DNA of 64,000 nucleotides from the NCBI RefSeq assembly GCF_000015725.1, contig NC_008825.1, positions 930,001 to 994,000 on the forward strand, read 5' to 3'. Every line of letters begins with the position of its first letter. The first letter of the stretch is position 1. Below, piece by piece: positions 36,689 to 54,216 of this stretch. Below the pieces are notes generated by a model. It did not search any database. It was not told where the DNA came from and was given only the letters and a program-made list of their open reading frames with translations. Source of the DNA: Methylibium petroleiphilum PM1 (GTDB lineage: Bacteria; Pseudomonadota; Gammaproteobacteria; Burkholderiales; Burkholderiaceae_C). A program made the position numbers and the translations under genes.

Positions 36689-36718
36689 TTGACAGCGGCG
36701 CGATGCGCTCGTTACTCT
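36689..36718 (+). promoter_or_regulatory. Candidate sigma-70 promoter of the sulfite dehydrogenase genes
   Basis: TTGACA (36689-36694) is followed after 18 bases by TACTCT (36713-36718). The -35 is perfect and the -10 weaker. A dyad overlaps the end of the -10, where a repressor would block initiation. Confidence 0.6.
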
Positions 36719-36733
36719 ACCGACCGATCGGTA
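36718..36733. promoter_or_regulatory. TetR-type operator candidate (TACCGA-CCGA-TCGGTA)
   Basis: A perfect 6-4-6 dyad overlapping the -10 and start region of the promoter before soxC. Its form is typical of TetR-family operators, and a TetR gene lies just downstream of soxD in convergent orientation. Confidence 0.55.
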
Positions 36734-36810
36734 CAGTTCTCGTGCGCGCCGCGCACCATGACCCGCCGCCGGGGCCTTCGCGTCCGGGCGCTCGACGAGG
36801 AAACACGACC

Positions 36811-38124: not shown

Positions 38125-38719
38125 ACTGTCGTGGTGCGGCCTCGTCGTCGCGTGCTGTCTGGCAGGTTGCGCGGTCCCGGCTGCCGCGCCGAACGCGGCG
38201 GCGCCTTCGCCGCACGGCCATGCGATCTCGGAGCAGGAACTGCAGGCCTGGAACATCGACGTGCGCGGCCCCGACGGCGCGGGGCTGCCGCCGGGGTCGG
38301 GTTCGGTCGCGGCGGGCAAGGCGGTGTTCGACGCCAAGTGCGCCGCCTGCCATGGCGCCGCCGCAGCCGGTGGGCCGGTGTTCGGGCCCATGGTCGGTGG
38401 CATCGGCTCCTTCAAGACCGATCGCCGCGTACTCACGCCGGGCAGCATGTATCCGTATGCGCCGATCCTGTTCGACTACGTGCGGCGTGCGATGCCGATG
38501 AACGCGCCGCAGTCGCTGACGAACGACGAGACCTACGCGGTCAGCGGCTATCTGCTGCACCTCAACGGGCTGGTGCCGGCCGATGCGGTGATGAGCGCAC
38601 AGACGTTGGCTGCGGTGCGCATGCCCAACCGCGACGGCTTCCTGGTCGACGATCGGCCCGACACCCGGGCCACGCGGTGCATGCGCGACTGCCCGCCGAT
38701 CTCGAGCGCGGCGCGCTGA
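38111..38719 (+). CDS. soxD: SoxD-like c-type cytochrome, predicted lipoprotein
   Basis: A 202-residue protein with a lipoprotein signal (LAGC, Cys20) and a single haem-binding motif CAACH (77-81); downstream RRAMPMNAPQSLT resembles the axial-Met region of SoxD/cytochrome c domains, and ETYAVSGYLLHLNGLV follows the family C-terminus. It overlaps soxC by 14 bases and would take electrons from its Mo centre. Only one haem is present. The lipid anchor would hold the enzyme at the membrane. Confidence 0.86.
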   Translation: MRSPELSWCGLVVACCLAGCAVPAAAPNAAAPSPHGHAISEQELQAWNIDVRGPDGAGLPPGSGSVAAGKAVFDAKCAACHGAAAAGGPVFGPMVGGIGSFKTDRRVLTPGSMYPYAPILFDYVRRAMPMNAPQSLTNDETYAVSGYLLHLNGLVPADAVMSAQTLAAVRMPNRDGFLVDDRPDTRATRCMRDCPPISSAAR

Positions 38720-39528: not shown

Positions 39529-40556
39529 ATGAGAGCCCAGCGCCATACGTACGATCTTGCCGAGGTGTTCGAACAGATCTTCTCGGCCGCGCCGTGGCCG
39601 ATGCTGATGCTGGGTGAGGACGCCGCGGTGCTGGGTGCGAGCGACGAATACGGCCACGGTGAGGCCGACTCCGACCTGCCGCTGCGCGCGCGTGCGCCGC
39701 ACTACCTGGCGTCGTTGCGCGGCGGCCCGCCGTGGTCGGCCGCGCAGGAGGCCGACAGCGTGCGGACGCTGCCCTCGGGGGCGCAGGTGCACGAGCGGCT
39801 CTTCCTGCGCCGCACGCCCTGGGGGGCCAGCCTCGTGATCGTCGACCAGACCGACCTGCGCCAGCTCCAGACCTCCGACCTGCAGACGGCACGGCTCGCG
39901 GCGCTGGGCTTCATGGTGGCGGGCGTCTGCCACGAGATCACGAACCCGCTCACCTCGCTGCACTCCATCGTGCAGATCCTGCGGTCCGAGAAGCAGCCGA
40001 GCCCGGCGCTGCTGGACAAGGGCTTCGACAACATCGCGGTCAACGTCAAGCGCATCCTCGACATCTCGCGGCGGCTGGTGAAGTTCTCGCGCGTCGGTGA
40101 CGAGCCGCGCTACGGCTTCGCGGTCGACGAGGCCATCGAGGAGGCGCTCTACGTGCTGCGCCAGGACGACCTGCTGCGCGACGTGGAGCTGCAGTACCTG
40201 CGCCGCGACGCGGGCCTGAAGGTGTTCGGCAACACGGGGCAGATCCGCGAGATCTTCCTGAACCTGTTCGTCAATGCCGCTCAGGCGATGGCCGGCCGCG
40301 GCACGCTGCGCATCGAGACCCGCGAGGCCGGCCCGATGGTCGAAGTGCTGGTCGGTGACACCGGCCCGGGCGTGCCGGCCGAGGCCGTGGGCCGCATCTT
40401 CGAACCCTTCTTCACCACCAAGTCCAGCATGCACGGCACCGGGCTCGGGCTGGCGATCAGCACCGAGATCGCCCACGAGCACGGCGGCAGCCTCTCGCTG
40501 CGACACACCGGCAGCGAGGGCGCCACGTTCTGCGTCGCGCTGCCCAGGGAACGCGC

Positions 40557-40560
<4 letters not shown>
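39529..40560 (+). CDS. Soluble sensor histidine kinase (NtrB-like)
   Basis: A 343-residue kinase without membrane segments. A degenerate PAS-like region (about 10-110) is followed by the dimerisation/phosphoacceptor helix MVAGVCHEITNPLTSL (His135), the N box NLFVNAAQAM, G1 DTGPGVP, F box FTTKSS and G2 GTGLGLA. It senses a cytoplasmic signal and phosphorylates the response regulator encoded next, whose ATG overlaps its stop by 4 bases. Together they form a sigma-54 two-component system placed between the sulfite oxidation genes and the oxygenase operon. Confidence 0.9.
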
Positions 40561-42005
<1,445 letters not shown>

Positions 42006-42023: not shown

Positions 42024-42482
42024 ATGTCGAACGAATCCGCCGAACTGCTGACACCGAACCTGATCCTCGCGCAGACGGGTTTCTTCCAGGACCTGACCGC
42101 GCGCCAGCTCGAGCGCATCGCGCTGCTCAGCGAGGTGCAGCACTGCAACGAGGGGCAGCAGGTCTACCGGGTCGGCGAACCGGCCAGCCTGGTCTATGTG
42201 CTGGTGCGCGGCATGGTCCGGCTCGCGGTGGGCTACGGCGAGCGCAACGCCAGTGCCGGCAACATGCTGCGGCGCGGCGAGGTGTTCGGCTGGGCGGCGC
42301 TCACGCCGAGCTGCAACCTGCGCATCGCCACCGCCACCTGCCTCACGCCCTGCAGCTTCCTGGCGATCGACGGCAACGGCCTGCTCGGTCTGATGGAGCA
42401 GGATCACACGCTGGGCTACCGCCTGATGACCCAGCTCAACCGCATCATCTCCGGCACGCTGACGGCCTTCGCCGGCGGTTGA
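42024..42482 (+). CDS. Free-standing cyclic-nucleotide-binding-like domain protein
   Basis: A 152-residue protein consisting of one Crp-type cNMP-binding domain with no HTH. The barrel spans about 20-120, with the phosphate-binding cassette RRGEVFGWAALTPSCNLRIATATC (split: RRGEVFGWAAL at 83-93, then LRIATATC). The Glu that binds ribose in cAMP sites is Trp here, and the phosphate Arg is shifted, so the ligand may not be cAMP. It follows the response regulator by 18 bases. The same cassette recurs in the Rieske-ferredoxin fusion and the ABC-permease fusion, suggesting a shared signal or assembly. Confidence 0.88.
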   Translation: MSNESAELLTPNLILAQTGFFQDLTARQLERIALLSEVQHCNEGQQVYRVGEPASLVYVLVRGMVRLAVGYGERNASAGNMLRRGEVFGWAALTPSCNLRIATATCLTPCSFLAIDGNGLLGLMEQDHTLGYRLMTQLNRIISGTLTAFAGG

Positions 42483-42507
42483 CGCAGAGCCCCGCGCGGC
42501 CGACGCG

Positions 42508-43251
42508 CTACAGCGCGCGCAGCAGCAGGCCGGCTCCGACCGCGACGCACAGCGCGCCCACGGCGCGGCGCAGCAGCGCGGCATCGACGGCGTGCGCGAG
42601 ATGCACGCCGATCCACACGCCGGCCACCTCGAACACCGTCAGCAGCGCGGCGAGTTCGAGGTCCACGATGCCGTGCGCCAAGTGGCCCACGCTGCCCGAG
42701 ACCGACGCCAGGATCTGCACCACCTGGCTGGCGCCGATCGCGGTCAGCGGCGCGAAGCCGCTCAGCACCATCATCGGCACGGACAGCGCCGGACCGCCCA
42801 CGCCGGTGAGCCCGGATCCGAAGCCGGTGAGCGCGCCGATGCCGAACAGCAGCGCGCGCCGCCACTGCGGCCGACCCTCGAAGGCGGTGCGGCGTCGTGC
42901 GCCGCCCCCGAGCAGCGTGTAGACACCGGCCAGCACGATCAGCACGGCCAGCACCAGCCCGAGCAGGTGGGCATCGAGCAGAGCGTTGGCCCAGGCGCCG
43001 ACCGCGCCGAACAGCGCGCCGCCCACGCACAGCGGCAGCGTCACCGACCAGTCGATGCTGCCGCGCCGTTGGAAGAACCAGGTGCCGACGATGCCGGTGA
43101 AGATGAAGGTGAAGAGGGCCGTGGCCATCGACGCCTGGATGGGCAGCGGCGCCAGCAGGTTGAGCGCCGGGATCAGCAGGATGCCACCCACTCCCACGGC
43201 GCCGATCAGCACGCCGACGACCAGCGCGACCGCGATCAGCCCGGCCATCAT
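42508..43251 (-). CDS. TauE/SafE-family membrane permease (sulfite/organosulfonate exporter type)
   Basis: A 247-residue TSUP protein with about eight hydrophobic segments. It begins LIAVALVVGVLIGAVGVGGILLIPAL and repeats the pattern as GIGALTGFGSGLTGVGGPALSVPMM, the two internal copies typical of the family. TSUP proteins move sulfite, sulfoacetate or other organosulfur anions. Its ATG overlaps the SulP stop by 4 bases, so the two are cotranscribed. Near a sulfite dehydrogenase it would export sulfite to the periplasm for oxidation; the substrate is inferred. Confidence 0.88.
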   Translation of the reverse strand: MMAGLIAVALVVGVLIGAVGVGGILLIPALNLLAPLPIQASMATALFTFIFTGIVGTWFFQRRGSIDWSVTLPLCVGGALFGAVGAWANALLDAHLLGLVLAVLIVLAGVYTLLGGGARRRTAFEGRPQWRRALLFGIGALTGFGSGLTGVGGPALSVPMMVLSGFAPLTAIGASQVVQILASVSGSVGHLAHGIVDLELAALLTVFEVAGVWIGVHLAHAVDAALLRRAVGALCVAVGAGLLLRAL

Positions 43252-45038
43252 GGGGTGCCGGCCGGCTCGCGCGGCGTGCCGTCGGGCAGCGTGCGCTGGC
43301 ACTGGCTGAAGATGCGGGCAGGGCAGCGGCGGCAGATCTGCGGGTCCAGCCGCGGGTAGAGGGCGTCGATCACGTTGCTGCCGATCGCATGCAGGTTCTC
43401 GCGGCCGATGGCGTCGAGGTGGCCGGAGCGCGCCAGCACGTCGACGGCCGACGGGTGCAGGCGGTGGAAGTACAGGCCGCCGCCGAGCTGGCGCCGTCGG
43501 CGCGCCTCCTGGCCCAGCAGCTCGGCCCCCGAGCTGTCGATGAAGTTGATGCCCGGCGCCAGCACGAGCAGGTGCTTGTGGCCGGGATCGGCCGCGTCGA
43601 TGTCGCGCAGCCGGCGCTGCACGTGATCGACGGCGCCGAAGTAGATGGGCCCGTCGATGAAGACCATCTTCAGCTGGCAGCAGTCGGGCTCGTCGGTCTG
43701 CGGCACGAAGTGGTAGCTGTGCGCGCCCGGCGCCGGGACCGCGTCGCGGATCTCCGGCCGGGCGGTGCGCTCCAGGAACACCATCAGCGACAGCAGCACG
43801 CCGACGTAGATGGCGAACTCGAGGTGCAGGAACAGGGTGGCGAGGAACGTCGCCGCCAGCACCGCAGCCTCGGCGCGACTGGTCCGCAGGATGCCGCGGA
43901 TGTGGTGCACGTCGACCAGCGAGTACGCGACGACGAGCAGGATCGCCGCCATCGACGCGATCGGCAGGTAGCGCACCAGCGGCGCCAGCGCCACCAGCGT
44001 CAGCACCAGGAACAGCGCCGAGAACACCGGCGCCAGCGGCGTCTTCGCGCCGGCTGTGTGGTTGACCCCGCTGCGCGTGAACGAGCCACTGGAGACATAG
44101 CTCGAGGCGAAGCTGCCGACCACGTTGGCGAGGCCCTGGCCGATGAACTCCTGGCTGCTGTCGATGCGCTGCCCCGACTTGAGCGCGATCGCGCGCGCGA
44201 TGGCCACCGCCTCGGTGAGCGAGAGCATCGCGAGCGCCAGCGCGATCGGTGCGAGCTGCCTCAGGGTCTCACCCGAAGGGATCGGCATCGACAGCGGCGG
44301 CAGGCTGCGCGGGATGGCCGACACCATCGCGATGCCCGTCTGCGGGCCGAACAGCGCGGTCAGCGCCAGCGCATGCAGGCTGCCGACCGCCATGGCGACG
44401 ATCATGTGCGGCGCGCGCGGCAGCCAGGTGCGCGTGCCCACCGCGGCCAGCAGCGTGACGATGCCCACGCTCAGCACGTGGACGTTGGTGTCCGGCAGGC
44501 GCTGCACGAACAGGCGCAGGGTCTCGATGAACGAGGCGCTGGCCGGCGCGGTGATGCCGAAGAAGTTCTTCAGCTGGCTGGTGGCGATCAGCACCGCGGC
44601 GCCGGCGGTGAATCCGATCACCACGCTGTGCGAGATGAAGTTCACCAGCACGCCGAGGCGCGCCAGCCCCATCGCCAGCATCAGCAGCCCCGTCATGAAG
44701 GTGAGGCTCAGCGCGAGCTGGATGTAGGCCGCGCTGCCCGGCTCGGCCAGCGGGCTGAGCGTCGCGAAGATGACGATCGACAACGCGGCGGTGGGGCCGG
44801 ACACGAGATGCAGCGACGAGCCGAACAGCGCGGCCACGATCACCGGCACGATCGCGGTGTAGAGGCCATAGGCCGGCGGCAGCCCGGCGATGCTGGCGTA
44901 GGCGACCGCCTGCGGCACCAGGATGATGGTGCCCGTGAGTCCGGCGAGCAGGTCCGCGCGCAGGCTGCGCCGGTTCACCATCGGCCACCACTGCAGCATG
45001 GGCAGGAGCCTTGCGAGCCAGCGGTCGGTCGTTGCCAT
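43248..45038 (-). CDS. SulP-family anion permease with STAS domain
   Basis: A 596-residue SulP transporter. The membrane part has the family signature LLAGLTGTIILVPQAVAYASIAGLPPAYGLYTAIVP and NVVGSFASSYVSSGSFTRSGVN; the C-terminal STAS domain (about 445-560) carries GINFIDSSGAELLG. A Cys-containing tail (CRRCPARIFSQC, about 565-585) is an unusual addition that could bind metal or be redox active. SulP proteins carry sulfate, bicarbonate or other anions; sulfate export or uptake fits the sulfur genes here. It is divergent from the Rieske operon. Confidence 0.9.
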   Translation of the reverse strand: MATTDRWLARLLPMLQWWPMVNRRSLRADLLAGLTGTIILVPQAVAYASIAGLPPAYGLYTAIVPVIVAALFGSSLHLVSGPTAALSIVIFATLSPLAEPGSAAYIQLALSLTFMTGLLMLAMGLARLGVLVNFISHSVVIGFTAGAAVLIATSQLKNFFGITAPASASFIETLRLFVQRLPDTNVHVLSVGIVTLLAAVGTRTWLPRAPHMIVAMAVGSLHALALTALFGPQTGIAMVSAIPRSLPPLSMPIPSGETLRQLAPIALALAMLSLTEAVAIARAIALKSGQRIDSSQEFIGQGLANVVGSFASSYVSSGSFTRSGVNHTAGAKTPLAPVFSALFLVLTLVALAPLVRYLPIASMAAILLVVAYSLVDVHHIRGILRTSRAEAAVLAATFLATLFLHLEFAIYVGVLLSLMVFLERTARPEIRDAVPAPGAHSYHFVPQTDEPDCCQLKMVFIDGPIYFGAVDHVQRRLRDIDAADPGHKHLLVLAPGINFIDSSGAELLGQEARRRRQLGGGLYFHRLHPSAVDVLARSGHLDAIGRENLHAIGSNVIDALYPRLDPQICRRCPARIFSQCQRTLPDGTPREPAGTP

Positions 45039-45173
45039 GGTGCTTTCGTTGGGACGCGCGTGAGGGCGGTGCGATGCGCGCCGCCCTCACGTCGTCGCAT
45101 CGCCAGCGCCTCGTTCAGCAAAGTTGGTGCCACGCACGCCAGCGTGGACATCGGGGCGCATCGGCACGTGCGC

Positions 45174-45211
45174 GTTTCGAATGGAAACGGTCGCCGGTTT
45201 CGCTGTGAAAC
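45174..45211. promoter_or_regulatory. Two GTTTC-N5-GAAAC dyads: candidate activator sites upstream of the Rieske operon
   Basis: GTTTCGAATGGAAAC (45174-45188) and GTTTCGCTGTGAAAC (45197-45211) share perfect 5-base arms and are 23 bases apart. They lie about 110-150 bases upstream of the sigma-54-like promoter at 45321, the normal distance for NtrC-type enhancers, inside the 374-base gap between divergent SulP and Rieske genes. No gene is visible in that gap. Confidence 0.55.
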
Positions 45212-45320
45212 GTCGGTCGGTCCGGCGCGCTGATGGAAACCCTTGGAAGCGCCGCAACATCGGTTCGATGAAGCGCGATTTCGGCCTCCGCGCGGCCCGG
45301 AAACCGCGATTTGTCCCTTG

Positions 45321-45334
45321 GGCACGGACCGTGC
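45321..45334 (+). promoter_or_regulatory. Sigma-54-like (-24/-12) promoter before the Rieske operon
   Basis: GGCAC-GGACC-GTGC gives the invariant GG-N10-GC spacing; the flanking T before GG and the first T of TTGC differ from consensus. Predicted transcription would start about 65 bases before the ATG. The element is also a GCACGG-A-CCGTGC dyad, so it could be a protein site instead. Confidence 0.45.
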
Positions 45335-45412
45335 AATGAAGGTGTCGTCACGGACGCAGCGGTGACCTCGAGCGCTGTGTCATCCCTGTCTTCGCAACTC
45401 ACGGAGAGCCGC

Positions 45413-46624
45413 ATGTCGCGCAATGCAACCGAGTGGCAGCAACGCCCCAATTTCCCCGACACCCACTTCGTCAGCACCGACATCTACACCGACGAGCAGA
45501 TCTTCCGGCAGGAGCAGGAGCTGATCTTCAACAAGGTGTGGATCATTGCGTGCCACGAGTCGGAGCTGCAGAACGCCTACGACTACCGCACCTTCAACCA
45601 CCCGGGCGGCGCGCCGCTGATCGTGGTGCGCGGCGAGGACATGAAGGTCCGCAGCTTCTACAACATCTGTCCGCACCGCGGCAACACGCTGCTCTACGAG
45701 CCGGTAGGCAATGCCAAGCGCATCACCTGCATCTTCCACGCGTGGTCGTTCGACGTGAAGGGCAACTGCATCGACATCTCGCGCGGCAAGCAGGGCTACC
45801 AGGACCGCTACGGCTGCGAGCAGGCCGGCCTGCGCGAGGTGAAGACCGAGATCGGCTACGGCGGCTTCGTGTGGGTCAACGTGGATGACCAGTGCTCATC
45901 GCTCGGTGAGTACATCGGCGACTCGATGAGCATGCTCGACGAGCAGCTGAACATGCCGCTCGAGGTCTTCCACTATCACAAGGCCGTGGTCAACACGAAC
46001 TACAAGCTGTGGCACGACACGAACAGCGAGTTCTATCACGACTACATGCACTACTTCAATCGCATCACCGGGATGATCCAGCCCGGCTATTTCGATCGGA
46101 AGTACACCGGCTACCCCAACGGCCACGCCTCGGTCGGCTCGATGGCGATCAAGTACGACGCCTACGAGGGCAGCAAGGCGCGCGGCGTGGGCTGGCCCGG
46201 CCTGGCGCCGGGAGGCTGGGTGCTGATCGACATCTTCCCGGGCATGACCTTCAACCTGCGCACCTCGGTGCTGCGGATGGACACGGCGATCCCGCTGGGG
46301 CCGAACAAGCTGCTGATCGAGTTCCGCGGTCTGGGCCTCAAGAGCGACACGCCCGAAGAGCGGGCCGAGCGTATCCGCGACCACAACACCATCTGGGGGC
46401 CGTTCGGTCGCAACCTGCACGAGGACCTGCTTGGGGTGCATGGCCAGGGGCTGGCGATGCGCGACCGCACCGACAGCAAGTGGGTGCTGCACGGGCGCGA
46501 GGAGAACATGACCATCCACGACGAAGGCGGCATGCGCCACTTCTATGCGGAATGGAGCCGCCGCATGGGCCGCATGGCCCATGACCCGCACGGCAAGGCC
46601 GGCACGGCCCAGGCCGCCGCCTGA
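45413..46624 (+). CDS. Rieske non-haem iron oxygenase, alpha (large) subunit
   Basis: A 403-residue oxygenase large subunit. The Rieske centre is CPHRG (Cys86, His88) with CIFHAW (Cys106, His109), 17 residues between the pairs; the catalytic domain has WHDTNSEFYHDYMHYFNR, in which Glu206, His209 and His213 are the likely iron region, a variant of the common D-x2-H-x4-H. The beta subunit, reductase and ferredoxin genes follow in one operon. The combination with TauT-type uptake and sulfite oxidation suggests C-S bond cleavage of a sulfonate. Methanesulfonate monooxygenase is one comparison, but its unusual long Rieske spacing is absent here. Confidence 0.9.
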   Translation: MSRNATEWQQRPNFPDTHFVSTDIYTDEQIFRQEQELIFNKVWIIACHESELQNAYDYRTFNHPGGAPLIVVRGEDMKVRSFYNICPHRGNTLLYEPVGNAKRITCIFHAWSFDVKGNCIDISRGKQGYQDRYGCEQAGLREVKTEIGYGGFVWVNVDDQCSSLGEYIGDSMSMLDEQLNMPLEVFHYHKAVVNTNYKLWHDTNSEFYHDYMHYFNRITGMIQPGYFDRKYTGYPNGHASVGSMAIKYDAYEGSKARGVGWPGLAPGGWVLIDIFPGMTFNLRTSVLRMDTAIPLGPNKLLIEFRGLGLKSDTPEERAERIRDHNTIWGPFGRNLHEDLLGVHGQGLAMRDRTDSKWVLHGREENMTIHDEGGMRHFYAEWSRRMGRMAHDPHGKAGTAQAAA

Positions 46625-46651
46625 GTCCGGACCACCGACGCGAGGAACACC

Positions 46652-47113
46652 GTGGACACACGCACCGCCATCACCGAACTGATCAGCCGCTCGGCCATGA
46701 CCCTGGACGAGAAGAAGTTCGACGCCTACCTCGAACTCTGCGATCCGGCCTACGTGTACCGGATCACCGCCTACAGCCCCGAGATCCGCAAGGAGATGAC
46801 CTGGCTGGAGCACGACAAGCCGGGCCTGAAGACGCTGTTCACCAACCTGCCGCGGCACAACAGCGACCAGTCGCCGATGACCCGCCACGTCTGCGTGTAC
46901 ACGGTGAAGCTCGACGACGGCGCGGCGCAGGCCGAGGTGGTGAGCACCGTGCAGGCCTACCGCACCACGCTGGACGGCGGCACGACCGAGCTGTTCGCGG
47001 TCGGCAAGATCTACGACCGGGTCGCGCTCGGCGCCGAGGGCCCGCGGATGCTCGAGCGCAACGTGCGGCTCGACACGCGGATGCTCGGCTTCGGCTACCA
47101 CATCCCGATCTGA
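46652..47113 (+). CDS. Rieske oxygenase beta (small) subunit
   Basis: A 153-residue protein of the ring-hydroxylating dioxygenase beta/SnoaL-like cystatin-fold group (ITELISRSAMTLDEKKFDAYLELCDPAYVYRITAYSPEI, then HVCVYTVKL, TVQAYRTT). It begins with GTG at 46652, 27 bases after the alpha subunit, with GAGGAAC upstream. It should form an alpha-beta oxygenase with structural and stabilising roles. It is shorter than aromatic dioxygenase beta subunits (about 160-190 residues). Confidence 0.85.
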   Translation: MDTRTAITELISRSAMTLDEKKFDAYLELCDPAYVYRITAYSPEIRKEMTWLEHDKPGLKTLFTNLPRHNSDQSPMTRHVCVYTVKLDDGAAQAEVVSTVQAYRTTLDGGTTELFAVGKIYDRVALGAEGPRMLERNVRLDTRMLGFGYHIPI

Positions 47114-47135
47114 GCGCCGGCCACGGAGCCACCCC

Positions 47136-48173
47136 ATGAAGATCGAAGTCAAGGCGCGCAACCGCGCCCACGCGTTCGACGCCGAGCCGGGCAGCCGGGT
47201 GCTGTACGCCGGGCTCGGCCAGGCCATCGACCTGCCCTACGAGTGCGGCAGCGGCACCTGCGGCACCTGCAAGGCGCGACTGCTGTCGGGCGAGATCGAC
47301 GACCTGTGGCCCGAGGCGCCCGGCCGCAAGTACCTGAAGCAGGCCGACGAGTTCCTGATGTGCCAGTGCGCCGCGCGCGGCCCGCTGTCGATCGAAGTGG
47401 CGAGCTTCGTCGAGGACCTCGAGCCCGATGTCTGCATCCCGCGCGCCGCGTCCGGGCGCATCGTCGCCGCCCGGCTGCTGACTCACGACGTGATGTCGCT
47501 GCGCATCGCGCTGGCCGCACCGCTGTCGTTCGACGCCGGGCAGTTCGTGCTGGTCCAGGTGCCGGGGATCGACGGCTACCGCGGCTGGTCGATGGTGAAC
47601 CACGCGAAGGACGCCCTCGAGCTCGACTTCGTCATCAAGAAGAAGCCCGACGGGAAGCTGTCGGACTGGCTGTTCTCGGCTACGCCGGCCGGCACCGCGG
47701 TCGAGCTGTTCGGTCCGCTTGGCGCGGCCACCTTCTATCCGGAGCTCGACAAGAACATCCTCTGCATCGCTGGCGGCAGCGGCATCGCCGGGATGATGTC
47801 GATCCTGGAGCGGGCCGCGCGGGCCGACTACTTCGCCAGCCACGACGGCGACGTCTTCTTCGGCGTGCGCTCGATGAAGGACGCGTTCTTCCTCGACGAG
47901 TTCAGCCGCCTGCGCGCCGCCTGTGGCGAGCGACTGCGCGTCACGATCGCGTTCTCCGAGGAGCCGGCGTCCGACGCGTTGCGGGCGAGCCATCCGCTGC
48001 TGCAGTTCGAGACAGGCTTCGTGCACGAGGTGGCCGGCCGTGGCATGCAGGGGCGCTATCAGGGCGTGCGCGCCTACCTGGCCGGGCCGCCGCCGGCGGT
48101 GGACGCCTGCGTGCGCATGCTGCTGATGGCGCGCGTGTCGACCGACAACATCCGCTACGACAAGTTCAGCTGA
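47136..48173 (+). CDS. Oxygenase reductase: plant-type 2Fe-2S ferredoxin plus FAD/NAD domains
   Basis: A 345-residue electron-transfer protein. N-terminal 2Fe-2S domain with CGSGTCGTC (Cys37, 42, 45) and a fourth Cys at 76 or 78; then a ferredoxin-NADP reductase-type FAD domain (RGWSMVNH, KLSDWLF) and an NAD domain (ILCIAGGSGIAGMMSILE, YLAGPPPAVDA). It transfers electrons from NAD(P)H to the Rieske ferredoxin encoded next, or directly to the oxygenase. It is located 22 bases after the beta subunit. Confidence 0.93.
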   Translation: MKIEVKARNRAHAFDAEPGSRVLYAGLGQAIDLPYECGSGTCGTCKARLLSGEIDDLWPEAPGRKYLKQADEFLMCQCAARGPLSIEVASFVEDLEPDVCIPRAASGRIVAARLLTHDVMSLRIALAAPLSFDAGQFVLVQVPGIDGYRGWSMVNHAKDALELDFVIKKKPDGKLSDWLFSATPAGTAVELFGPLGAATFYPELDKNILCIAGGSGIAGMMSILERAARADYFASHDGDVFFGVRSMKDAFFLDEFSRLRAACGERLRVTIAFSEEPASDALRASHPLLQFETGFVHEVAGRGMQGRYQGVRAYLAGPPPAVDACVRMLLMARVSTDNIRYDKFS

Positions 48174-48186
48174 CGACGGGCCCCCC

Positions 48187-48915
48187 ATGAAGCGCATCCG
48201 CATCTGCAGCGCCAGCGAGATCCCCGGCCAGGGGATGAAGTGCTACGACACGGCCACGGGCAGCAAGGTCCTGGTGGTGAACAGCGGCGACCAATTCCAC
48301 GCCTTCCAGGGCCTGTGCCCACACCAGGACGTGTGCCTCGACGAGGGCTTCTTCGACGGCAGCACGCTGACCTGCCACCAGCACCTGTGGCAGTGGGACG
48401 TGAAGACGGGCGAGGCCCTCGGGCTGGCCGAGGCGCCGCTGGAGCGCTACGAGATCGAGCACGTCGACGGCGAGATCTTCGTGCTGCAGTCCAGTGCGCT
48501 GCGCGCCTGCGAGCTGTTCAAGGGCATCTCCGACGCGGTGATCGGGCGGCTCGACGCCCTGGCGCGGCGGGAGGAGCACGGCGTGGCGGCGGCGCTGTAC
48601 GACATCGGCGATCCGGCCGACGACCTCTACATCCTCGAATCGGGCCGCGTGGAATTCGAGATCGGCCGCGAGGACCGCACGCGCATGGCGGGCTTCATGC
48701 TGCGCAAGGGCGAGATGTTCGGGTGGGCCGCGCTGCTGCAGGACCAGCCGCGCCGCATCGCCCGCGCCACCTGCATGGAGCCGTCCACGTTCCTGCGGCT
48801 CAAGGGCGAGGACGTCCTGAAGGTGCTGGCGGAGGAGCCGGCAGCAGGCTTCCTCGTGATGCGCCAGCTCTCGACGCTGATCACGCGGCATCTGCGCACG
48901 CAGGGCGGCAAGTGA
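48187..48915 (+). CDS. Rieske ferredoxin fused to a cyclic-nucleotide-binding-like domain
   Basis: A 242-residue protein with two domains. Residues 1-100 are a Rieske ferredoxin (CPHQD with Cys44/His46; CHQH with Cys63/His66). Residues about 107-235 are a Crp-type cNMP-binding-like barrel with the cassette RKGEMFGWAALL (173-184) and PRRIARATC (188-196). Normal oxygenase ferredoxins end after about 105 residues. The cassette is shared with the proteins at 42024 and 50285. Coupling electron delivery to a small-molecule signal is the obvious hypothesis. No linker stop or frameshift is seen and the 13-base spacing to the reductase is normal, so the fusion looks real. Confidence 0.92.
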   Translation: MKRIRICSASEIPGQGMKCYDTATGSKVLVVNSGDQFHAFQGLCPHQDVCLDEGFFDGSTLTCHQHLWQWDVKTGEALGLAEAPLERYEIEHVDGEIFVLQSSALRACELFKGISDAVIGRLDALARREEHGVAAALYDIGDPADDLYILESGRVEFEIGREDRTRMAGFMLRKGEMFGWAALLQDQPRRIARATCMEPSTFLRLKGEDVLKVLAEEPAAGFLVMRQLSTLITRHLRTQGGK

Positions 48916-49000
48916 ACCGCGCCGCACAGGAACCGGCGCAAGGAAGGCAAGCAACAACAAGGAAGCCCGCAGAGGGAGTCGAATGGTCCGATAAAACCGG

Positions 49001-49015
49001 GCCCGCTGCGCGGGC
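49001..49015 (+). other. Stem-loop in the operon before the substrate-binding protein gene
   Basis: GCCCGC-TGC-GCGGGC forms a perfect 6-bp stem with a 3-base loop in the 127-base gap between the ferredoxin fusion and the periplasmic binding protein gene. Such hairpins often protect or separate the highly expressed binding-protein mRNA in transporter operons. Confidence 0.4.
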
Positions 49016-49042
49016 ACCGCATGAACCAACAAGGAGACAAGC

Positions 49043-50188
49043 ATGACGTTCTGGATGAATCAGCGTGTACGCGCGGCCGCCGCAGCGATGGCGGTGGCTT
49101 GCGGCCTCGGCATCGGGGCTCCTTCGACGGCGCTCGCCGCCGATCTCGACTACGGCAAGCCGGGTGATCCGGTCCAACTGGTGATCGGCTACCAGCCGTA
49201 CTACACCCAGTCGTGGTCCGGCGTGGTCATGCGGGGCAAGAAGTTCTACGAGAAGTACCTGCCCAAGGGCTCCACGGTCGACTTCTCGATCGGCCTGCAG
49301 GGCGCGGTGATCGTCAACGCCATGCTGGCCGGCAAGCAGCACATCGGCTACATGGGCGACATGCCGGCGATCGTCTCGACCACCAAGGAATCGGTGGCGG
49401 ACATCCGCATCGTCGCGACGCTCGGCGTCGGCTTCGACCAGTGCAACATCCTGCTGGCTCGCAACGACGCGCCCAAGTTCGGCAACGGCAAGGAAGGCGT
49501 CAAGTGGCTCGAGGGCAAGCGCATCGGCATCCCGCTGGGCAGCTGCGCCGACCGTTTCGCGAAGGAGGCCTTCCGCAAGGAGGGGGTCGCGCCGGCGGCC
49601 ATAATGAACCAGAACATCGAGGTCATCACCAGCGGCTTCCGCGCCGGCAAGCTCGATGCCGCGGCGATCTGGGAGCCCACCGCCTCGCGGCTGGTGGAGG
49701 AGGGGCTGGCGCGGCGCATCGCCAGCGGCGCGACGGTCAACGAGAAGGACGCCGGCTTCCTGGCCATGCGGGCCGACCTGATCAAGCAGCGTCCCGACGT
49801 CGCCAAGGCCTGGCTGAACGCCGAGCTCGACGCCCAGCTGTTCCTCGCCGACCCGAAGAACGCGATGGAGGTGGCGGCGATGGCCGCGCAGCAGGCGACC
49901 GGCTTCACCGAGAAGATGCTGTGGCACTCCCTCTACGGCCAGTACCCGGCCGAGATCGGCGGGATCCCGGTGCGCATGCAGATGCCCTTCACGCTGACGC
50001 CCGACGTGGTGGCGCAGATCAACCAGTCCGCGGCCTTCCTGTTCTCCATCAAGAGCATCAACGTCGAGAAGCTGCGCGCCGACGCGCTGATGAACGACAT
50101 GGCGGCGCAGGTGCTCAAGGAGCGCAACCTGAGTTCGCCGATCGGTGAGGTCAAGGCCATGCCCGACAGCGAGTACGGCAAGAAGTAG
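49043..50188 (+). CDS. ABC transporter periplasmic substrate-binding protein, NitT/TauT (SsuA) type
   Basis: A 381-residue protein with a Sec signal peptide (cleavage after STALAA) and the TauA/SsuA-type fold pattern: VQLVIGYQPYYTQSWSGVVMRGKKFYEKYLPKG, VNAMLAGKQHIGYMGDMPAIVS, GKRIGIPLGSCADRFAKEAF, GKLDAAAIWEPTASRLVEEG. It delivers an anion such as a sulfonate to the permeases encoded downstream. AAGGAGAC precedes the ATG. The gene follows the oxygenase genes directly, so the transported compound is probably the oxygenase substrate. Confidence 0.9.
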   Translation: MTFWMNQRVRAAAAAMAVACGLGIGAPSTALAADLDYGKPGDPVQLVIGYQPYYTQSWSGVVMRGKKFYEKYLPKGSTVDFSIGLQGAVIVNAMLAGKQHIGYMGDMPAIVSTTKESVADIRIVATLGVGFDQCNILLARNDAPKFGNGKEGVKWLEGKRIGIPLGSCADRFAKEAFRKEGVAPAAIMNQNIEVITSGFRAGKLDAAAIWEPTASRLVEEGLARRIASGATVNEKDAGFLAMRADLIKQRPDVAKAWLNAELDAQLFLADPKNAMEVAAMAAQQATGFTEKMLWHSLYGQYPAEIGGIPVRMQMPFTLTPDVVAQINQSAAFLFSIKSINVEKLRADALMNDMAAQVLKERNLSSPIGEVKAMPDSEYGKK

Positions 50189-50284
50189 CCGGCCGTTCGG
50201 CCCCGAGCGAGAGAGAGCAGCCGGTCATCGCCGCGGCCAGGAGCCGCAGGCGGTGCCGCCACTCGGCCCCATTCAGGAGGATGC

Positions 50285-51619
50285 ATGGATCACATCGGTG
50301 CGGTGCTCAAGCGAGCCATGCCGTTCCAGACGGTACCGCCGGAGATGCTTCAGGAGATCGTGAAGCTGTCGAAGCTGAAGTCGTATGCGCGTGGCGACAT
50401 GATCTACGACCTCGACGAAGAGGCCGACGATGTCTACATCGTCGCCTCCGGCAGCGTGAACCACGCCCTGCGTAGCGAAGCCGGCGGCGAACTGCTCGAG
50501 AAGGTGATGCGCCCGGGCGACGTGTTCGGCTGGGCGGCCGTGCTGACCGGTCGCAATCGCCGCATGGCCCGGACGGTGTGCCTGGAGCGTACCGAGGCCA
50601 TCCGCATCAACGGCGGGGCGCTGATGGCGCTGATCAAGCAGTCTCCGGCGCGCGGCGATGTGGTGATGAGCCGCTTCGCGACCATGATCACCCGCGAGTT
50701 CTCGGCGTCGCCGTCGGTCGCGGCGCGGGTGCCGCATTTCGGCGCAGCCGACTCCGGCGCGGCGCAGGGCGGTAGCGGCGGCGACGGCTGGGCGCGCACG
50801 ATGTTCCGCCTCTCGCAGTGGCTCAAGAGCCCCAAGCCCTACATGATGCTGGCCGGCTACGCCATGCTGCTGGGCTTCTGGTACTTCACGGTCGAGGTCT
50901 GGAAGCTGCCGCGCTTTCGGGACATGCCGGGCCTGACGACGGTGTTCACCGAGATGTTCAACCGCCATCCGGTGTACGGGCTCTCGATCTACACGCCGGA
51001 GTACTACGACCACATCTGGGCCAGCGTGCGGCGGGTCGCCACCGCCTTCTTCCTGGCCACCGGGCTGGGCGTGCCGCTCGGGCTCTTTCTCGGCTGGTCG
51101 AAGTCCTTCCGCGAGTACGTGTTCCCGATCTTCGAGACGCTGCGGCCGATCCCCATCCTGGCGTGGGTGCCGCTGGCGATCCTGATGTTCTCGGGCACCG
51201 AGACGCCGGTGATCTTCCTGACCTTCCTGGCCTCGTTCTTCGCCACGGCGCTCAACACCATGCTCGGCGTCGAGTCGATCGACGAGTCCTACAGCCGCGC
51301 AGCCTACTGCCTGGGCGCGAGCAAGTGGCAGGTGTTCCGCGAGGTCATCGTGCCGGGTTCCATGCCCTACATCTTCACGGGGCTGCAGATCTCGGTCGGG
51401 GTCGCGTGGTTCTCGCTGGTGGCCGGCGAGATGGTCTCTGGCGAGTTCGGCCTGGGCTATGTGATCAACACCTCGTACACGATGGTGCAGTACCCGACGA
51501 TCGTGATCGGCATGGTCACGCTCGGTGCGGTGGGCTACGTGACCAGCGCCATGGTGCGTGTGGTGGGCGACATGATGATGCAGTGGCGCGTGCGCGAGCT
51601 GGCGTTGGGAGGACGCTGA
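50285..51619 (+). CDS. ABC permease with an N-terminal cyclic-nucleotide-binding-like domain
   Basis: A 444-residue fusion. Residues 10-140 are a Crp-type cNMP-binding-like barrel (cassette RPGDVFGWAAVL 76-87, NRRMARTVC 91-99); 141-170 is a Gly/Ala-rich linker; 171-444 is a SsuC/TauC-type permease with about six membrane segments and the EAA loop SRAAYCLGASKWQVFREVIVPGSMP that docks the ATPase. Usual SsuC-type permeases are about 260 residues with no such domain. The barrel would be cytoplasmic next to the ATPases and could gate transport. Its cassette matches the proteins at 42024 and 48187. It is followed by an ATPase gene 1 base after its stop. Confidence 0.92.
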   Translation: MDHIGAVLKRAMPFQTVPPEMLQEIVKLSKLKSYARGDMIYDLDEEADDVYIVASGSVNHALRSEAGGELLEKVMRPGDVFGWAAVLTGRNRRMARTVCLERTEAIRINGGALMALIKQSPARGDVVMSRFATMITREFSASPSVAARVPHFGAADSGAAQGGSGGDGWARTMFRLSQWLKSPKPYMMLAGYAMLLGFWYFTVEVWKLPRFRDMPGLTTVFTEMFNRHPVYGLSIYTPEYYDHIWASVRRVATAFFLATGLGVPLGLFLGWSKSFREYVFPIFETLRPIPILAWVPLAILMFSGTETPVIFLTFLASFFATALNTMLGVESIDESYSRAAYCLGASKWQVFREVIVPGSMPYIFTGLQISVGVAWFSLVAGEMVSGEFGLGYVINTSYTMVQYPTIVIGMVTLGAVGYVTSAMVRVVGDMMMQWRVRELALGGR

Positions 51620-51620
51620 G

Positions 51621-52487
51621 ATGAACACCACCCAGGAAAGACAGCGGCAGTCCGGCGGCCGGGCCGCCACGCAGGGCGCGATCCGCATCGACGATGTCGT
51701 CAAGGTCTACGACCCCGACGGCGCGGCCGTGATGGCGGTGGACCACTGCACGCTCGACATCGCGGCCGGTGAGATCTGCATGATCGTCGGGCCCTCGGGC
51801 TGCGGCAAGACCACGCTGCTCAACGCGATCGCGGGCTTCCACAGCATCAGCTCGGGCACGATCACGATGGACGGCGAGGTGCTGTGCGGTCCCGGCAAGC
51901 CCAAGGCCGAGCCGGGCTCGGACCGCATCGTGGTGTTCCAGAACGGCGCGCTGTTCCCATGGAAGACCAACCTCGAGAACGTCGCCTTCGGCCCGCTGAT
52001 GCAGGGGAAGATGGGCAAGAAGGAGATCTACGAGAAGGCCCGCCGCATGATGGCCGATGCCGGCCTGAGCGGCACCGAGAACAACTACCCCGGCGAGGTG
52101 TCGTCGGGGCTGCGCCGGCGCGTGGAGATCGTGCGCGCGCTGATGAACGACCCGAAGGTGCTGCTGTTCGACGAGCCCTACCGAGCGCTCGACTCGCTGA
52201 CCAAGTCGGTCATGCACGAGGCGCTGCTGGAGATCTACTACAAGAACAAGGTCACGATCTTCTTCATCACCCACGACCTCGAGGAGGCCATCTTCCTCGG
52301 GCACCGGCTGGTGATCATGACCTCGCGGCCGTGCCGGCCGAAGAAGATCCTCGATGTCGACATTCCCCATCCGCGCGACTACAGCGTGCTGACCAGCCCG
52401 CGCTTCCGCGAGCTGATGGAGGAGACCAGTGCGATCGTGCACGAGGAAGCGAAGAAGTCCTTCGCGGCCGGCGAGAAGGAGGGCTGA
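51621..52487 (+). CDS. ABC importer ATPase A (TauB/SsuB type, variant signature motif)
   Basis: A 288-residue ATPase. Walker A GPSGCGKT (57-64), Q loop VVFQNGALFPW (Gln107), Walker B LLFDEP with Glu185 and H-loop THD (His218) are intact, but the LSGGQ-type signature reads VSSGL (160-164). In the two-ATPase dimer this signature would face the nucleotide bound by the partner, ATPase B, which lacks its H-loop His. The gene starts 1 base after the permease fusion and precedes the second permease by 3 bases. The C-terminal tail is longer than in SsuB. Confidence 0.92.
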   Translation: MNTTQERQRQSGGRAATQGAIRIDDVVKVYDPDGAAVMAVDHCTLDIAAGEICMIVGPSGCGKTTLLNAIAGFHSISSGTITMDGEVLCGPGKPKAEPGSDRIVVFQNGALFPWKTNLENVAFGPLMQGKMGKKEIYEKARRMMADAGLSGTENNYPGEVSSGLRRRVEIVRALMNDPKVLLFDEPYRALDSLTKSVMHEALLEIYYKNKVTIFFITHDLEEAIFLGHRLVIMTSRPCRPKKILDVDIPHPRDYSVLTSPRFRELMEETSAIVHEEAKKSFAAGEKEG

Positions 52488-52490
52488 ACC

Positions 52491-53315
52491 ATGAGCCATG
52501 GCATCACCCGGTTTCGCCAGCGCGTGCTGAGCCGCTCGACGCTGCGCGCGATCATTGCGCTGACGGCCTTCGTCATCCTGTGGGAACTGGGCGCGCGCTC
52601 GCCCGAATGGCTGGGCTTCGCGCTGCCCTGGATCGGCCAGGTGCCGGCGCCCAGCGGCGTGCTCAAGGCCTGGGCAGGCCTGCTGGGCAACGCCGGCTAC
52701 TGGGAGAGCTGGTACCTCAGCCTGGTGCGGGTGCTCGCGGGCTTCGGCGCGGCGATGCTGATCGGCATCCCGCTGGGCCTGATGATGGCCGTGAGCAAGG
52801 CGGTGCACGGCGTCGTGTTCCCGAGCTTCGAGCTGCTGCGGCCGATCCCGCCGCTGGCCTGGGTGCCGGCCTCGATCATCTTCTGGCCGACGGCCGAGAT
52901 GTCGATCGCCTTCGTGACCTTCCTCGGCGCCTTCTTCACCATCGTCATCAACGTCGTCGGCGGGGCCAAGTCGATCGACGTGCGCTACTTCCAGGCGGCG
53001 CAGGCGATGGGCGCGTCGCAGTGGGACATCTTCCGCCGCGTGGTGCTGCCGGCCACGCTGCCGTCGATCGTGGTCGGCTCCGCGGTGGGCATGGGCATCA
53101 CCTGGGAGGTGGTGGTGGCGGCCGAGATGATCTCCGGGGGCGGCAAGAGCGCCGAAGGCGGGGGACTGGGCTTCTTCATCTGGAACTCGTACGTGGGCGG
53201 TTCGTACGAGCAGATCGTCGTCGGCATGATCAGCATCGGCATCGCGGGCTTCGCCTGCAGCGAGGCGCTGCGCGCGCTCGGCGGACTGGTCACGCCCTGG
53301 TTGAAACAGCGTTGA
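52491..53315 (+). CDS. ABC transporter permease, SsuC/TauC type (second permease)
   Basis: A 274-residue membrane protein with about six segments and the BPD_transp_1 EAA loop YFQAAQAMGASQWDIFRRVVLPATLP. It has no N-terminal extension, unlike the partner permease at 50285. A heteromeric importer with two permeases and two ATPases is expected. GGAIN-like Gly-rich stretch GGGKSAEGGGLG (periplasm-facing by prediction) is an unusual insertion. The spacing of 3 bases before and 10 after indicates tight translation coupling. Confidence 0.92.
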   Translation: MSHGITRFRQRVLSRSTLRAIIALTAFVILWELGARSPEWLGFALPWIGQVPAPSGVLKAWAGLLGNAGYWESWYLSLVRVLAGFGAAMLIGIPLGLMMAVSKAVHGVVFPSFELLRPIPPLAWVPASIIFWPTAEMSIAFVTFLGAFFTIVINVVGGAKSIDVRYFQAAQAMGASQWDIFRRVVLPATLPSIVVGSAVGMGITWEVVVAAEMISGGGKSAEGGGLGFFIWNSYVGGSYEQIVVGMISIGIAGFACSEALRALGGLVTPWLKQR

Positions 53316-53325
53316 GGAGTGCACG

Positions 53326-54216
53326 ATGGCCCAACACAAGCCTTCGGGCAGCACGCGCGGCGAGATCCAGGTCCGCAACGTCACCAAGACCTACGGCACC
53401 GGACCGTTCGCCAAGACCGTGGTGCAGGACTGCTCGTTCACGATCGAGCGCAACAAGCTCACCGTGATGATCGGCCCGTCGGGTTGCGGGAAGAGCACGC
53501 TGATCCGGTTGCTCGCGGGCTTCGAGAAGCCCGACAGCGGCAGCATCCAGATCGACGGGCGGCCCATCACCGGGCCCGGCAAGGACCGTCTCGTGGTGTT
53601 CCAGGAAAGCGCGCTGTTCCCGTGGATGACGACCATGGACAACATCCTCTACGGACCGCGCGCGCGCGGTGAGCAGAACGGGCAGACGCAGTCGCAGGCC
53701 GATTTCCTGCTGGAGAAGGTGGGACTCAAGGCCTTCAGCCGCAAGTACCCCACGCAGCTGTCGGGTGGCATGCAGCGGCGTGCCGAACTGGCGCGCGCCA
53801 TGATCAACAACCCCGACGTGATGATCCTCGACGAGCCGTTCCGCGGCCTCGACGCGATGTCCAAGGAGCTGATGTGGGAGTACTACTCCGGCCTGTACGA
53901 GGAGTCTCACCGCACCAATTTCTTCGTGACCACCGACATCGACGAGGCGATCTTCCTCGCCGACCGCCTGATCGTGATGACGAACATCCCGACGCAGGTG
54001 AGGGCGACGCTCGAGGTGGACATCCCGCGGCCGCGAAGGCTGGCCAACGCCTTCGACAGCGAGCGCGCCAACGAAATCAAGATGCAGGCGCTGTCGCTGC
54101 TGCACGAGGAGGCCATGAAGTCCTTCTCGGGCGGCAGCCGCGCCGCGGCGGACTTCATCGAGGCCTATGCCAAGCGCACCGGCAAGGCGCCGGCCGAGGC
54201 GAAGCAGCCGGAATGA
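53326..54216 (+). CDS. ABC importer ATPase B (TauB/SsuB type, H-loop His missing)
   Basis: A 296-residue ATPase. Walker A GPSGCGKS (50-57), Q loop VVFQESALFPW, signature LSGGM (145-149) and Walker B MILDEP (Glu170) are intact, but the H-loop reads VTTDIDEA, with Thr203 in place of the conserved His. Codon ACC is clear in the sequence. Together with the altered signature of ATPase A this predicts one good and one degenerate ATP site in the heterodimer. It ends the transporter gene set; the amidohydrolase-like gene follows 58 bases later. Confidence 0.92.
   Translation: MAQHKPSGSTRGEIQVRNVTKTYGTGPFAKTVVQDCSFTIERNKLTVMIGPSGCGKSTLIRLLAGFEKPDSGSIQIDGRPITGPGKDRLVVFQESALFPWMTTMDNILYGPRARGEQNGQTQSQADFLLEKVGLKAFSRKYPTQLSGGMQRRAELARAMINNPDVMILDEPFRGLDAMSKELMWEYYSGLYEESHRTNFFVTTDIDEAIFLADRLIVMTNIPTQVRATLEVDIPRPRRLANAFDSERANEIKMQALSLLHEEAMKSFSGGSRAAADFIEAYAKRTGKAPAEAKQPE

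Follow-up and report, generated by a model that had tools for sequence, protein, structure and literature searches.

Why should one and the same ligand-binding fold occur on a membrane permease, on an electron carrier and as a free protein within a single bacterial locus? This question is raised by a 64,000-nucleotide stretch of the Methylibium petroleiphilum PM1 genome (contig NC_008825.1, positions 930,001 to 994,000; hereafter the window, whose own numbering is used), in which a Rieske-type oxygenase and an ATP-binding cassette (ABC) importer are encoded side by side. An earlier note on this DNA had claimed that three proteins within 10 kb carry homologous barrels of the Crp-type cyclic nucleotide-binding (CNB) fold, one free, one fused to the Rieske ferredoxin and one to an ABC permease, and that a Trp takes the place of the ribose-binding Glu of cyclic AMP (cAMP) sites. 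Our analysis bears out the three barrels and the Trp, and we see an even chance that all three barrels bind one small anionic metabolite which tunes import, electron supply and transcription, where ligand and control are what we infer from sequence.

All three barrels matched PF00027 (cNMP_binding) above the Pfam cut-off of 27.5 bits, with 46 bits for the free protein and 51.9 bits each for the Rieske and the permease protein, and the cassettes quoted before are in place. The 4.64-Mb genome has 13 PF00027 matches in total, of which these are three. The Rieske domain (47.4 bits) and the permease domain (BPD_transp_1, 95.5 bits) each lie in one open frame with their barrel, and the free protein (152 amino acids, aa) has PF00027 as its sole Pfam match and is without the C-terminal helix-turn-helix (HTH) of Crp/Fnr regulators. 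The ferredoxin has its cluster ligands, CPH-X16-CHQH, in agreement with the CXH...CXXH pattern of oxygenase Rieske ferredoxins. A chance Pfam match was ruled out by these scores and by a score gap in 41 genomes, where barrels of the family reached at least 94.9 bits and other Crp-type barrels at most 75.6 bits. The AlphaFold model of the ferredoxin fusion (predicted local distance difference test score, pLDDT, 86.5; predicted template modelling score, pTM, 0.65) is good for each domain and unsure in their relative placement. For the permease fusion, the model as a whole is weak (pLDDT 68.3, pTM 0.44), with 67 to 89 per ten residues in the barrel region, and its barrel resembles the ferredoxin barrel in topology; a helix starts at the cassette Trp in both (residues 180-183 from Trp180 and 83-86 from Trp83, respectively). 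Structure searches placed GlxR and CRP folds among the top matches of either barrel. Since basic residues precede the first membrane helix, the permease N-terminus, on which the barrel sits, is probably cytoplasmic.

An error of sequencing, frame or annotation joining separate genes at 48187 or 50285 was ruled out, because both fusions recur in many genomes. A genome-wide scan of one genome per species (84,980 species) returned 52 loci, and in more than 30 of them the permease fusion is held near full length at 57-96% identity. The titles of these loci are mostly those of Betaproteobacteria and include Methylibium sp. Root1272 (96%), Rubrivivax, Rhizobacter, Polaromonas, Herminiimonas, Glaciimonas immobilis, Thiobacillus thioparus and Methyloversatilis; two bins titled Anaerolineales and Rhizobium probably represent contigs that were binned wrongly. 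Most of the loci of sufficient length share the gene order alpha subunit, beta subunit, reductase, Rieske-barrel protein, binding protein, barrel-permease, ATPase, permease, ATPase; among the exceptions is L074, in which the importer comes before the oxygenase. As the scan used barrel motifs ([GD][DE]VFGWAA and GDV[VI]MSRF), and the Trp is thus partly selected for in the permease class and in any matching barrel, 399 genomes of the order were searched with the permease half alone (E at most 1e-100). Permease orthologues were found in 11 of them, and ten are fused: nine by open frame, plus G115, whose fusion was pieced together from contig edges (C40 holds barrel and linker, C255 starts inside the linker). 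An oxygenase alpha subunit of at least 68% identity occurs in the identical set of 11 genomes, while relatives of 43-44% are found in two more genomes and extra copies of 55-62% in three of the 11. Permease and Rieske queries against 149 relatives detected both fusions together in G000, G001, G004 (cut by a contig end), G051, G115, G135 and G137. Genomes found by these queries or by the order survey, and hence independently of the motif pattern, likewise have the Trp. In the wider phylum, barrels were detected in two of 398 genomes at E of at most 1e-22, with at most ten first-look candidates scored per genome. On plasmids, a tblastn search with the permease fusion (1470 records) gave, among the matches listed (30 of 1470), none with at least 80% query coverage and none with at least 60% identity.

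The barrel domain is modular. Barrel-free permeases start right at the linker (L073, L084 and G095/L028) and barrel-free ferredoxins stop right after the Rieske domain (L072 and L084). A gammaproteobacterial bin encodes a stand-alone barrel of 168 aa (L064:407-910) in the slot after the reductase that is usually taken by the Rieske-barrel protein, and one permease carries a tandem double barrel before its membrane part (L057:9878-11803, plus strand; the same barrels are found in L099). In G095, which has the sole unfused permease among the 11 orthologues of the order survey, the oxygenase gene is in two pieces (L166), with the permease elsewhere; this genome is 68% complete, and we are dealing with either a decaying locus or a poor assembly.

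In total, 111 barrels including those of the window were collected: 43 from permeases (two of them from the L057 tandem), 40 from Rieske proteins and 28 free or unassigned, with only identical rows removed and one contig-edge permease row relabelled. In a tree of 108 barrels, calculated without the five outgroup rows and without the three long rows L091, L056 (221 aa) and L064, every class forms one side of a single branch, with supports (ultrafast bootstrap/Shimodaira-Hasegawa-like approximate likelihood ratio test) of 100/99 for the permease, 97/93 for the Rieske and 100/99 for the free barrels. The three barrels are thus related to each other, as the earlier note had supposed, and the single branch per class implies that each fusion probably arose once. 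A first tree, which contained the wrong-frame row L085_O_14468 and five distant outgroup rows that are long and poorly placed, retained the three clusters with weaker support. Two divergent relatives were seen besides: a free family barrel of 221 aa upstream of the oxygenase (L056:2188-2850), which fell among the permease barrels in the first tree, and a distant member of 227 aa with an FGWAA barrel (103 bits) from a Dehalococcoidia bin (L091:5813-6493). Leaving out the outlier G890 from the 41 genomes mentioned above, all three forms occur together in 22 of 40 genomes and both fusions without a free barrel in 12, so that 34 have both fusions; the rest have the free and Rieske forms (two), the free and permease forms (one), the free form only (one), the Rieske form only (one) or a permease fusion with a stand-alone barrel (one). 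In this table, some classes were assigned from frame length and place alone, and many of the genomes are incomplete bins.

What might such a barrel bind? Invariant in 111 of 111 barrels are the Gly-Trp of FGW, an Arg, the Ala two positions after this Arg and one upstream Gly. The position of the Glu that contacts the ribose of cAMP is Trp throughout, and the phosphate Arg is retained throughout. When the window barrels were aligned to E. coli CRP, Glu72 was found to be replaced by Trp and Arg82 kept in all three; in the Rieske, permease and free barrels, respectively, Ser83 is replaced by I, M and I, Thr127 by Q, S and F, and Ser128 by G, P and A. We take Glu72 to contact the ribose, Arg82 the phosphate, and Ser83 together with Thr127 and Ser128 of the C-helix to complete the cAMP contacts. 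Because the Glu72, Ser83, Thr127 and Ser128 contacts are replaced, a cyclic nucleotide is unlikely as ligand, as had been proposed before, and a cAMP site was rejected on these residues. The invariant Arg beside the Trp suggests a small anion instead.

A context table of 37 rows, which correspond to 25 distinct loci, has a TauE gene at most 300 nt from the free barrel in 22 loci (exceptions L045, L089 and L086) and a sigma-54 regulator within about 1.3 kb, likewise in 22; the loci without a visible regulator (L071, L084 and L117) either are short or extend by less than 1.2 kb on that side. The window, too, combines barrels, uptake, oxidation and sigma-54 two-component genes in one locus, as noted earlier. 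Pfam detected no sensor domain in its histidine kinase (39529..40560). In 34 loci, 500 nt were scanned for sigma-54 sites and compared with mononucleotide shuffles. The best site on the oxygenase side agrees in 9 of 11 positions in 18 loci and in 10 of 11 in five, each with a shuffle frequency of about 0.003-0.07, and these 23 sites lie at most 145 nt from the aligned oxygenase start; the remaining 11 loci have weaker sites. On the opposite strand, at least 10 of 11 positions agree in eight of the 34 loci. Across the whole window, 26 matches with at most two mismatches are not above chance (shuffle mean 28.6). One of the 26 is perfect, and it lies between the divergent SulP and oxygenase genes (45117-45132, minus strand).

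A mechanism that would accommodate these observations starts from a dedicated branch of Crp/CNB domains placed on the N-terminus of the importer permease, on the C-terminus of the ferredoxin and in a free protein. The barrel would bind a small anionic metabolite of the pathway, a sulfonate or sulfite, with the Arg holding the anion and the Trp in the pocket. Ligand binding would alter transport, comparable to the trans-inhibition of MetNI, and would also alter electron delivery to the oxygenase, while the free copy might contact the kinase or the regulator and inform it, so that import, oxidation and expression would follow one internal signal. Sulfite is attractive as the ligand because it is toxic and because the gene of the free barrel adjoins a likely sulfite exporter; the sulfonate itself is as possible. 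That the barrels constitute a new class of Crp-derived sulfite or sulfonate sensors, acting in cis on importer and electron carrier and in trans on the regulator, and that this class includes a ligand-gated Rieske ferredoxin, is a wider and more tentative proposal, for which we see somewhat less than an even chance.

Which pathway would be controlled in this way? The locus probably mediates uptake of a small sulfonate, either methanesulfonate or a closely related compound, and its oxidative desulfonation, and it resembles loci of methanesulfonate catabolism; the oxygenase of the earlier note can accordingly be specified as one resembling methanesulfonate monooxygenase (MsmA). Together with oxygenase and importer, the window encodes sulfite-handling proteins: TauE, a sulfite-dehydrogenase-like protein with a cytochrome c, and SulP. 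For oxygenase, permease and binding protein alike, all NCBIfam models stayed below their cut-offs; the best scores below cut-off were SaoP, NtrB, TauC and then SsuC for the permease and the SsuA family for the binding protein. The nearest solved structures of the oxygenase are diverse. In one study, a Rieske spacer of 26 residues is given as a likely signature of MsmA, some virome versions are without the Rieske ligands, and short-spacer ‘MsmA’ proteins are named in Methylibium, Methyloversatilis and Thiobacillus (PMC4433239). Two of our loci have oxygenases with a 26-residue spacer (L054:4074-5369 and L055:4081-5379), alongside the same barrel-bearing ferredoxin and importer genes and a separate MsmC-like ferredoxin; they bridge canonical msm loci and short-spacer loci. 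The L054 oxygenase is 54.6% identical to a protein of phage HMO-2011 annotated as methanesulfonate monooxygenase. The T. thioparus record NZ_KB891326 (here L060) appears in a tree legend, apparently that of MsmE (PMC5068391), and the methanesulfonate genes of Methyloversatilis FAM5 are counted among modules silent under the conditions studied (PMC5023235). A PanB-like gene, at least 75% identical to that of L062, occurs in 17 of the 52 scan loci, mostly with GcvT and FolD, a count in which some loci share a genome and many of the others are short-flanked; these genes sit around TauE, the free barrel and the sigma-54 regulator.

Several observations weigh against the proposed control by one metabolite of a methanesulfonate-type pathway. 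The window oxygenase has a Rieske spacer of 17 residues, as opposed to 26 in the Msm oxygenases, and so departs from the MsmA signature, and the authors who described that signature state that they are aware of no hard data for short-spacer proteins oxidizing methanesulfonate (PMC4433239). The folate genes were found neither in the window nor in its nearest relatives, and in the window's own genome the PanB-like protein has relatives of only 30-35%; an amidohydrolase gene is present in the window and those nearest relatives, in many cases along with a GNAT gene. The substrate of the window locus may therefore be methanesulfonate or another small sulfonate. In Methylobacterium nodulans, a relative of the amidohydrolase (51%) is encoded next to an MsmA-like gene. 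Within the permease fusion, conservation is much lower in the barrel than in the permease part, with a mean pairwise identity of 0.484 vs. 0.790 in 35 proteins (0.267 for the linker). Copies in cis are sometimes absent, the permease being unfused in L073, L084 and G095 and the Rieske protein in L072 and L084, and two clusters speak against a strict link between barrel and ABC importer: L160 of G074 and L161, the second cluster of G137, have an unfused ferredoxin and ABC-like genes near an oxygenase. Finally, the free barrel could not be detected in 12 of the 34 genomes that carry both fusions, among them the draft genome of an isolate, Thiobacillus thioparus DSM 505. Loci with transporters of the major facilitator superfamily (MFS) or the tripartite ATP-independent periplasmic (TRAP) type (L139, L140 and L141) gave no barrel match. 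L139, from a plasmid of Paraburkholderia graminis PHS1, has the closest plasmid oxygenase (61%) with an unfused ferredoxin, next to an MFS transporter, a TSUP transporter and aldehyde dehydrogenase/aldolase genes, and perhaps serves a different sulfonate.

The main rival to ligand sensing is docking, in which the barrels are pairing modules: the ferredoxin barrel would pair with the single barrel of the importer via the C-terminal helix, or the free barrel would bridge the two, and both electron carrier and oxygenase would be held at the membrane. Crp-type barrels pair through the C-helix, this helix is strongly conserved inside the permease class, only one of the two permeases has a barrel, and the tandem of L057 places two on one permease. 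Nevertheless, we consider docking unlikely, as few positions other than the pocket Trp and Arg are invariant in all classes and pairing alone needs neither of these two, whereas the C-helix varies between classes and the fusions can be absent singly. Even less would we expect a domain that senses nothing and just stabilizes or spaces its host protein. Unfused relatives of ferredoxin and permease do exist, but a single family keeps identical invariant pocket residues in three settings, one of them a free protein, and in 39 Rieske proteins the barrel is conserved as much as the Rieske half (mean pairwise identity 0.616 vs. 0.606); this reading is quite improbable.

Two further readings borrow their signal from known Crp relatives. 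Sensing of redox state, O2 or NO, as in DNR/FNR-type proteins, would be in line with the DNR sensor domain among the structural matches and with a Cys common at one position (38 of 40 Rieske, 22 of 43 permease and 22 of 28 free barrels). This Cys is not universal, however, no further conserved Cys for a cluster was found among the 111 barrels, and the barrel family tracks one sulfonate-type locus, which makes the reading very improbable. Classical catabolite control, with a true cAMP or cGMP switch on each of the three proteins, would be suggested by the Pfam family, the fold and the invariant phosphate Arg, but with the ribose Glu exchanged for Trp without exception and the Ser83 and C-helix contacts of the window barrels replaced, we can hardly give it any credence. 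Sensing of a small anion remains our preferred reading.

The features of the locus are compiled in Table 1. The open reading frame of the oxygenase alpha subunit was listed from a TTG at 45311; its likely start is the ATG at 45413.

Table 1. Features of the barrel locus, in window coordinates.
Feature	Position	Strand	Basis
Sulfite-dehydrogenase-like molybdopterin protein and cytochrome c	36703..38719	+	
Histidine kinase, HisKA and HATPase_c	39529..40560	+	Pfam
Sigma-54-dependent response regulator, AtoC/NtrC type	40557..42005	+	Pfam, NCBIfam
Free Trp-type CNB barrel, 152 aa; Trp90 codon 42291-42293	42024..42482	+	
TauE/SafE-type sulfite exporter, PF01925	42508..43302	-	
SulP/STAS anion permease	43248..45038	-	
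Sigma-54 -24/-12 site, perfect match, facing SulP/TauE	45117..45132	-	
Sigma-54-like site, 9 of 11 positions, upstream of oxygenase	45320..45335	+	
Rieske oxygenase alpha subunit, MsmA-like, 17-residue spacer	45413..46624	+	
Oxygenase beta subunit	46652..47113	+	Pfam
2Fe-2S/FAD/NAD reductase, BenC/MmoC type	47136..48173	+	Pfam, NCBIfam
Rieske ferredoxin (aa 1-99) with Trp-type CNB barrel (aa 104-238); Trp180 codon 48724-48726	48187..48915	+	
ABC substrate-binding protein, SsuA/NMT1 type	49043..50188	+	
Trp-type CNB barrel (aa 7-139), variable linker (aa 141-168) and ABC permease (aa 175-440)	50285..51619	+	
Trp83 codon of the barrel-permease protein	50531-50533	+	
ABC ATPase 1	51621..52487	+	Named from sequence, without Pfam run
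Second ABC permease, barrel-free, 274 aa; about 40% identity to first permease part	52491..53315	+	Without Pfam run
ABC ATPase 2; about 38% identity to ATPase 1	53326..54216	+	Without Pfam run
Amidohydrolase, PF04909	54167..55132	+	

How does the locus compare with known systems? With MsmABCD/MsmEFGH of Methylosulfonomonas and Filomicrobium it shares the oxygenase alpha and beta subunits, the Rieske ferredoxin, the reductase and a sulfonate-type ABC importer, as well as TauE and the sulfite dehydrogenase with cytochrome c; GcvT and PanB-like genes are shared by some relatives of the window locus. The neighbors listed for Filomicrobium msm are TauE, GcvT, a PanB-type gene, SoxC and SoxD, and its importer order (binding protein, permease, ATPase, permease, ATPase) seems to be the same. 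Judged by their coordinates, the MsmC (378 bp) and MsmF (888 bp) genes of Filomicrobium leave no room for a barrel, in contrast to the barrel-bearing ferredoxin and permease found here. The closest folds of the ferredoxin half are the ferredoxins of toluene-4-monooxygenase (T4MoC), carbazole dioxygenase (CarAc) and 3-nitrotoluene dioxygenase; T4MoC and CarAc are likewise electron carriers of oxygenases, but stand alone with about 100-115 residues. For the permease part, the closest folds are those of the nitrate/bicarbonate importers NrtBCD/CmpBCD, whose solved chains of 246-265 residues are barrel-free. The barrels share fold, cassette position and Arg with the other PF00027 domains of CRP, GlxR and PKG, from which they differ in the Glu-to-Trp exchange of all 111, in the replaced Ser and adenine contacts of the window barrels, in being without an HTH and in being fused to a ferredoxin or permease. 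Cytoplasmic regulatory add-on domains are established for the ABC importers MetNI (C2 domain) and ModBC, where they form the C-terminus of the ATPase, whereas here a CNB fold sits on the permease N-terminus and also on the electron carrier of an enzyme (PMC10710835). MFS transporters with fused CNB domains, their function described as unknown, belong to another transporter superfamily, and the passage on them makes no mention of a shared domain on a pathway enzyme (PMC10710835). In the open-licence literature, we found no description of a CNB barrel on an ABC permease or a Rieske ferredoxin, which does not prove its absence, and among publications that mention both a CNB domain and sulfonate, none has a title that concerns this architecture; a text search did not find ‘cyclic nucleotide’ in PMC4433239 and PMC5068391.

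While regulatory domains fused to importers are known already, a single sensor domain shared by importer and electron carrier and also encoded next to the regulators of the same pathway would, if the reading is true, amount to control distributed through domain duplication, and ligand gating of a Rieske ferredoxin would offer a novel means of throttling an oxygenase. The finding also bears on a question in print, namely whether methanesulfonate use involves the short-spacer ‘MsmA’ proteins known from Methylibium, Methyloversatilis and Thiobacillus (PMC4433239). With the set of barrels as a marker of these loci, both questions can be put to the test.

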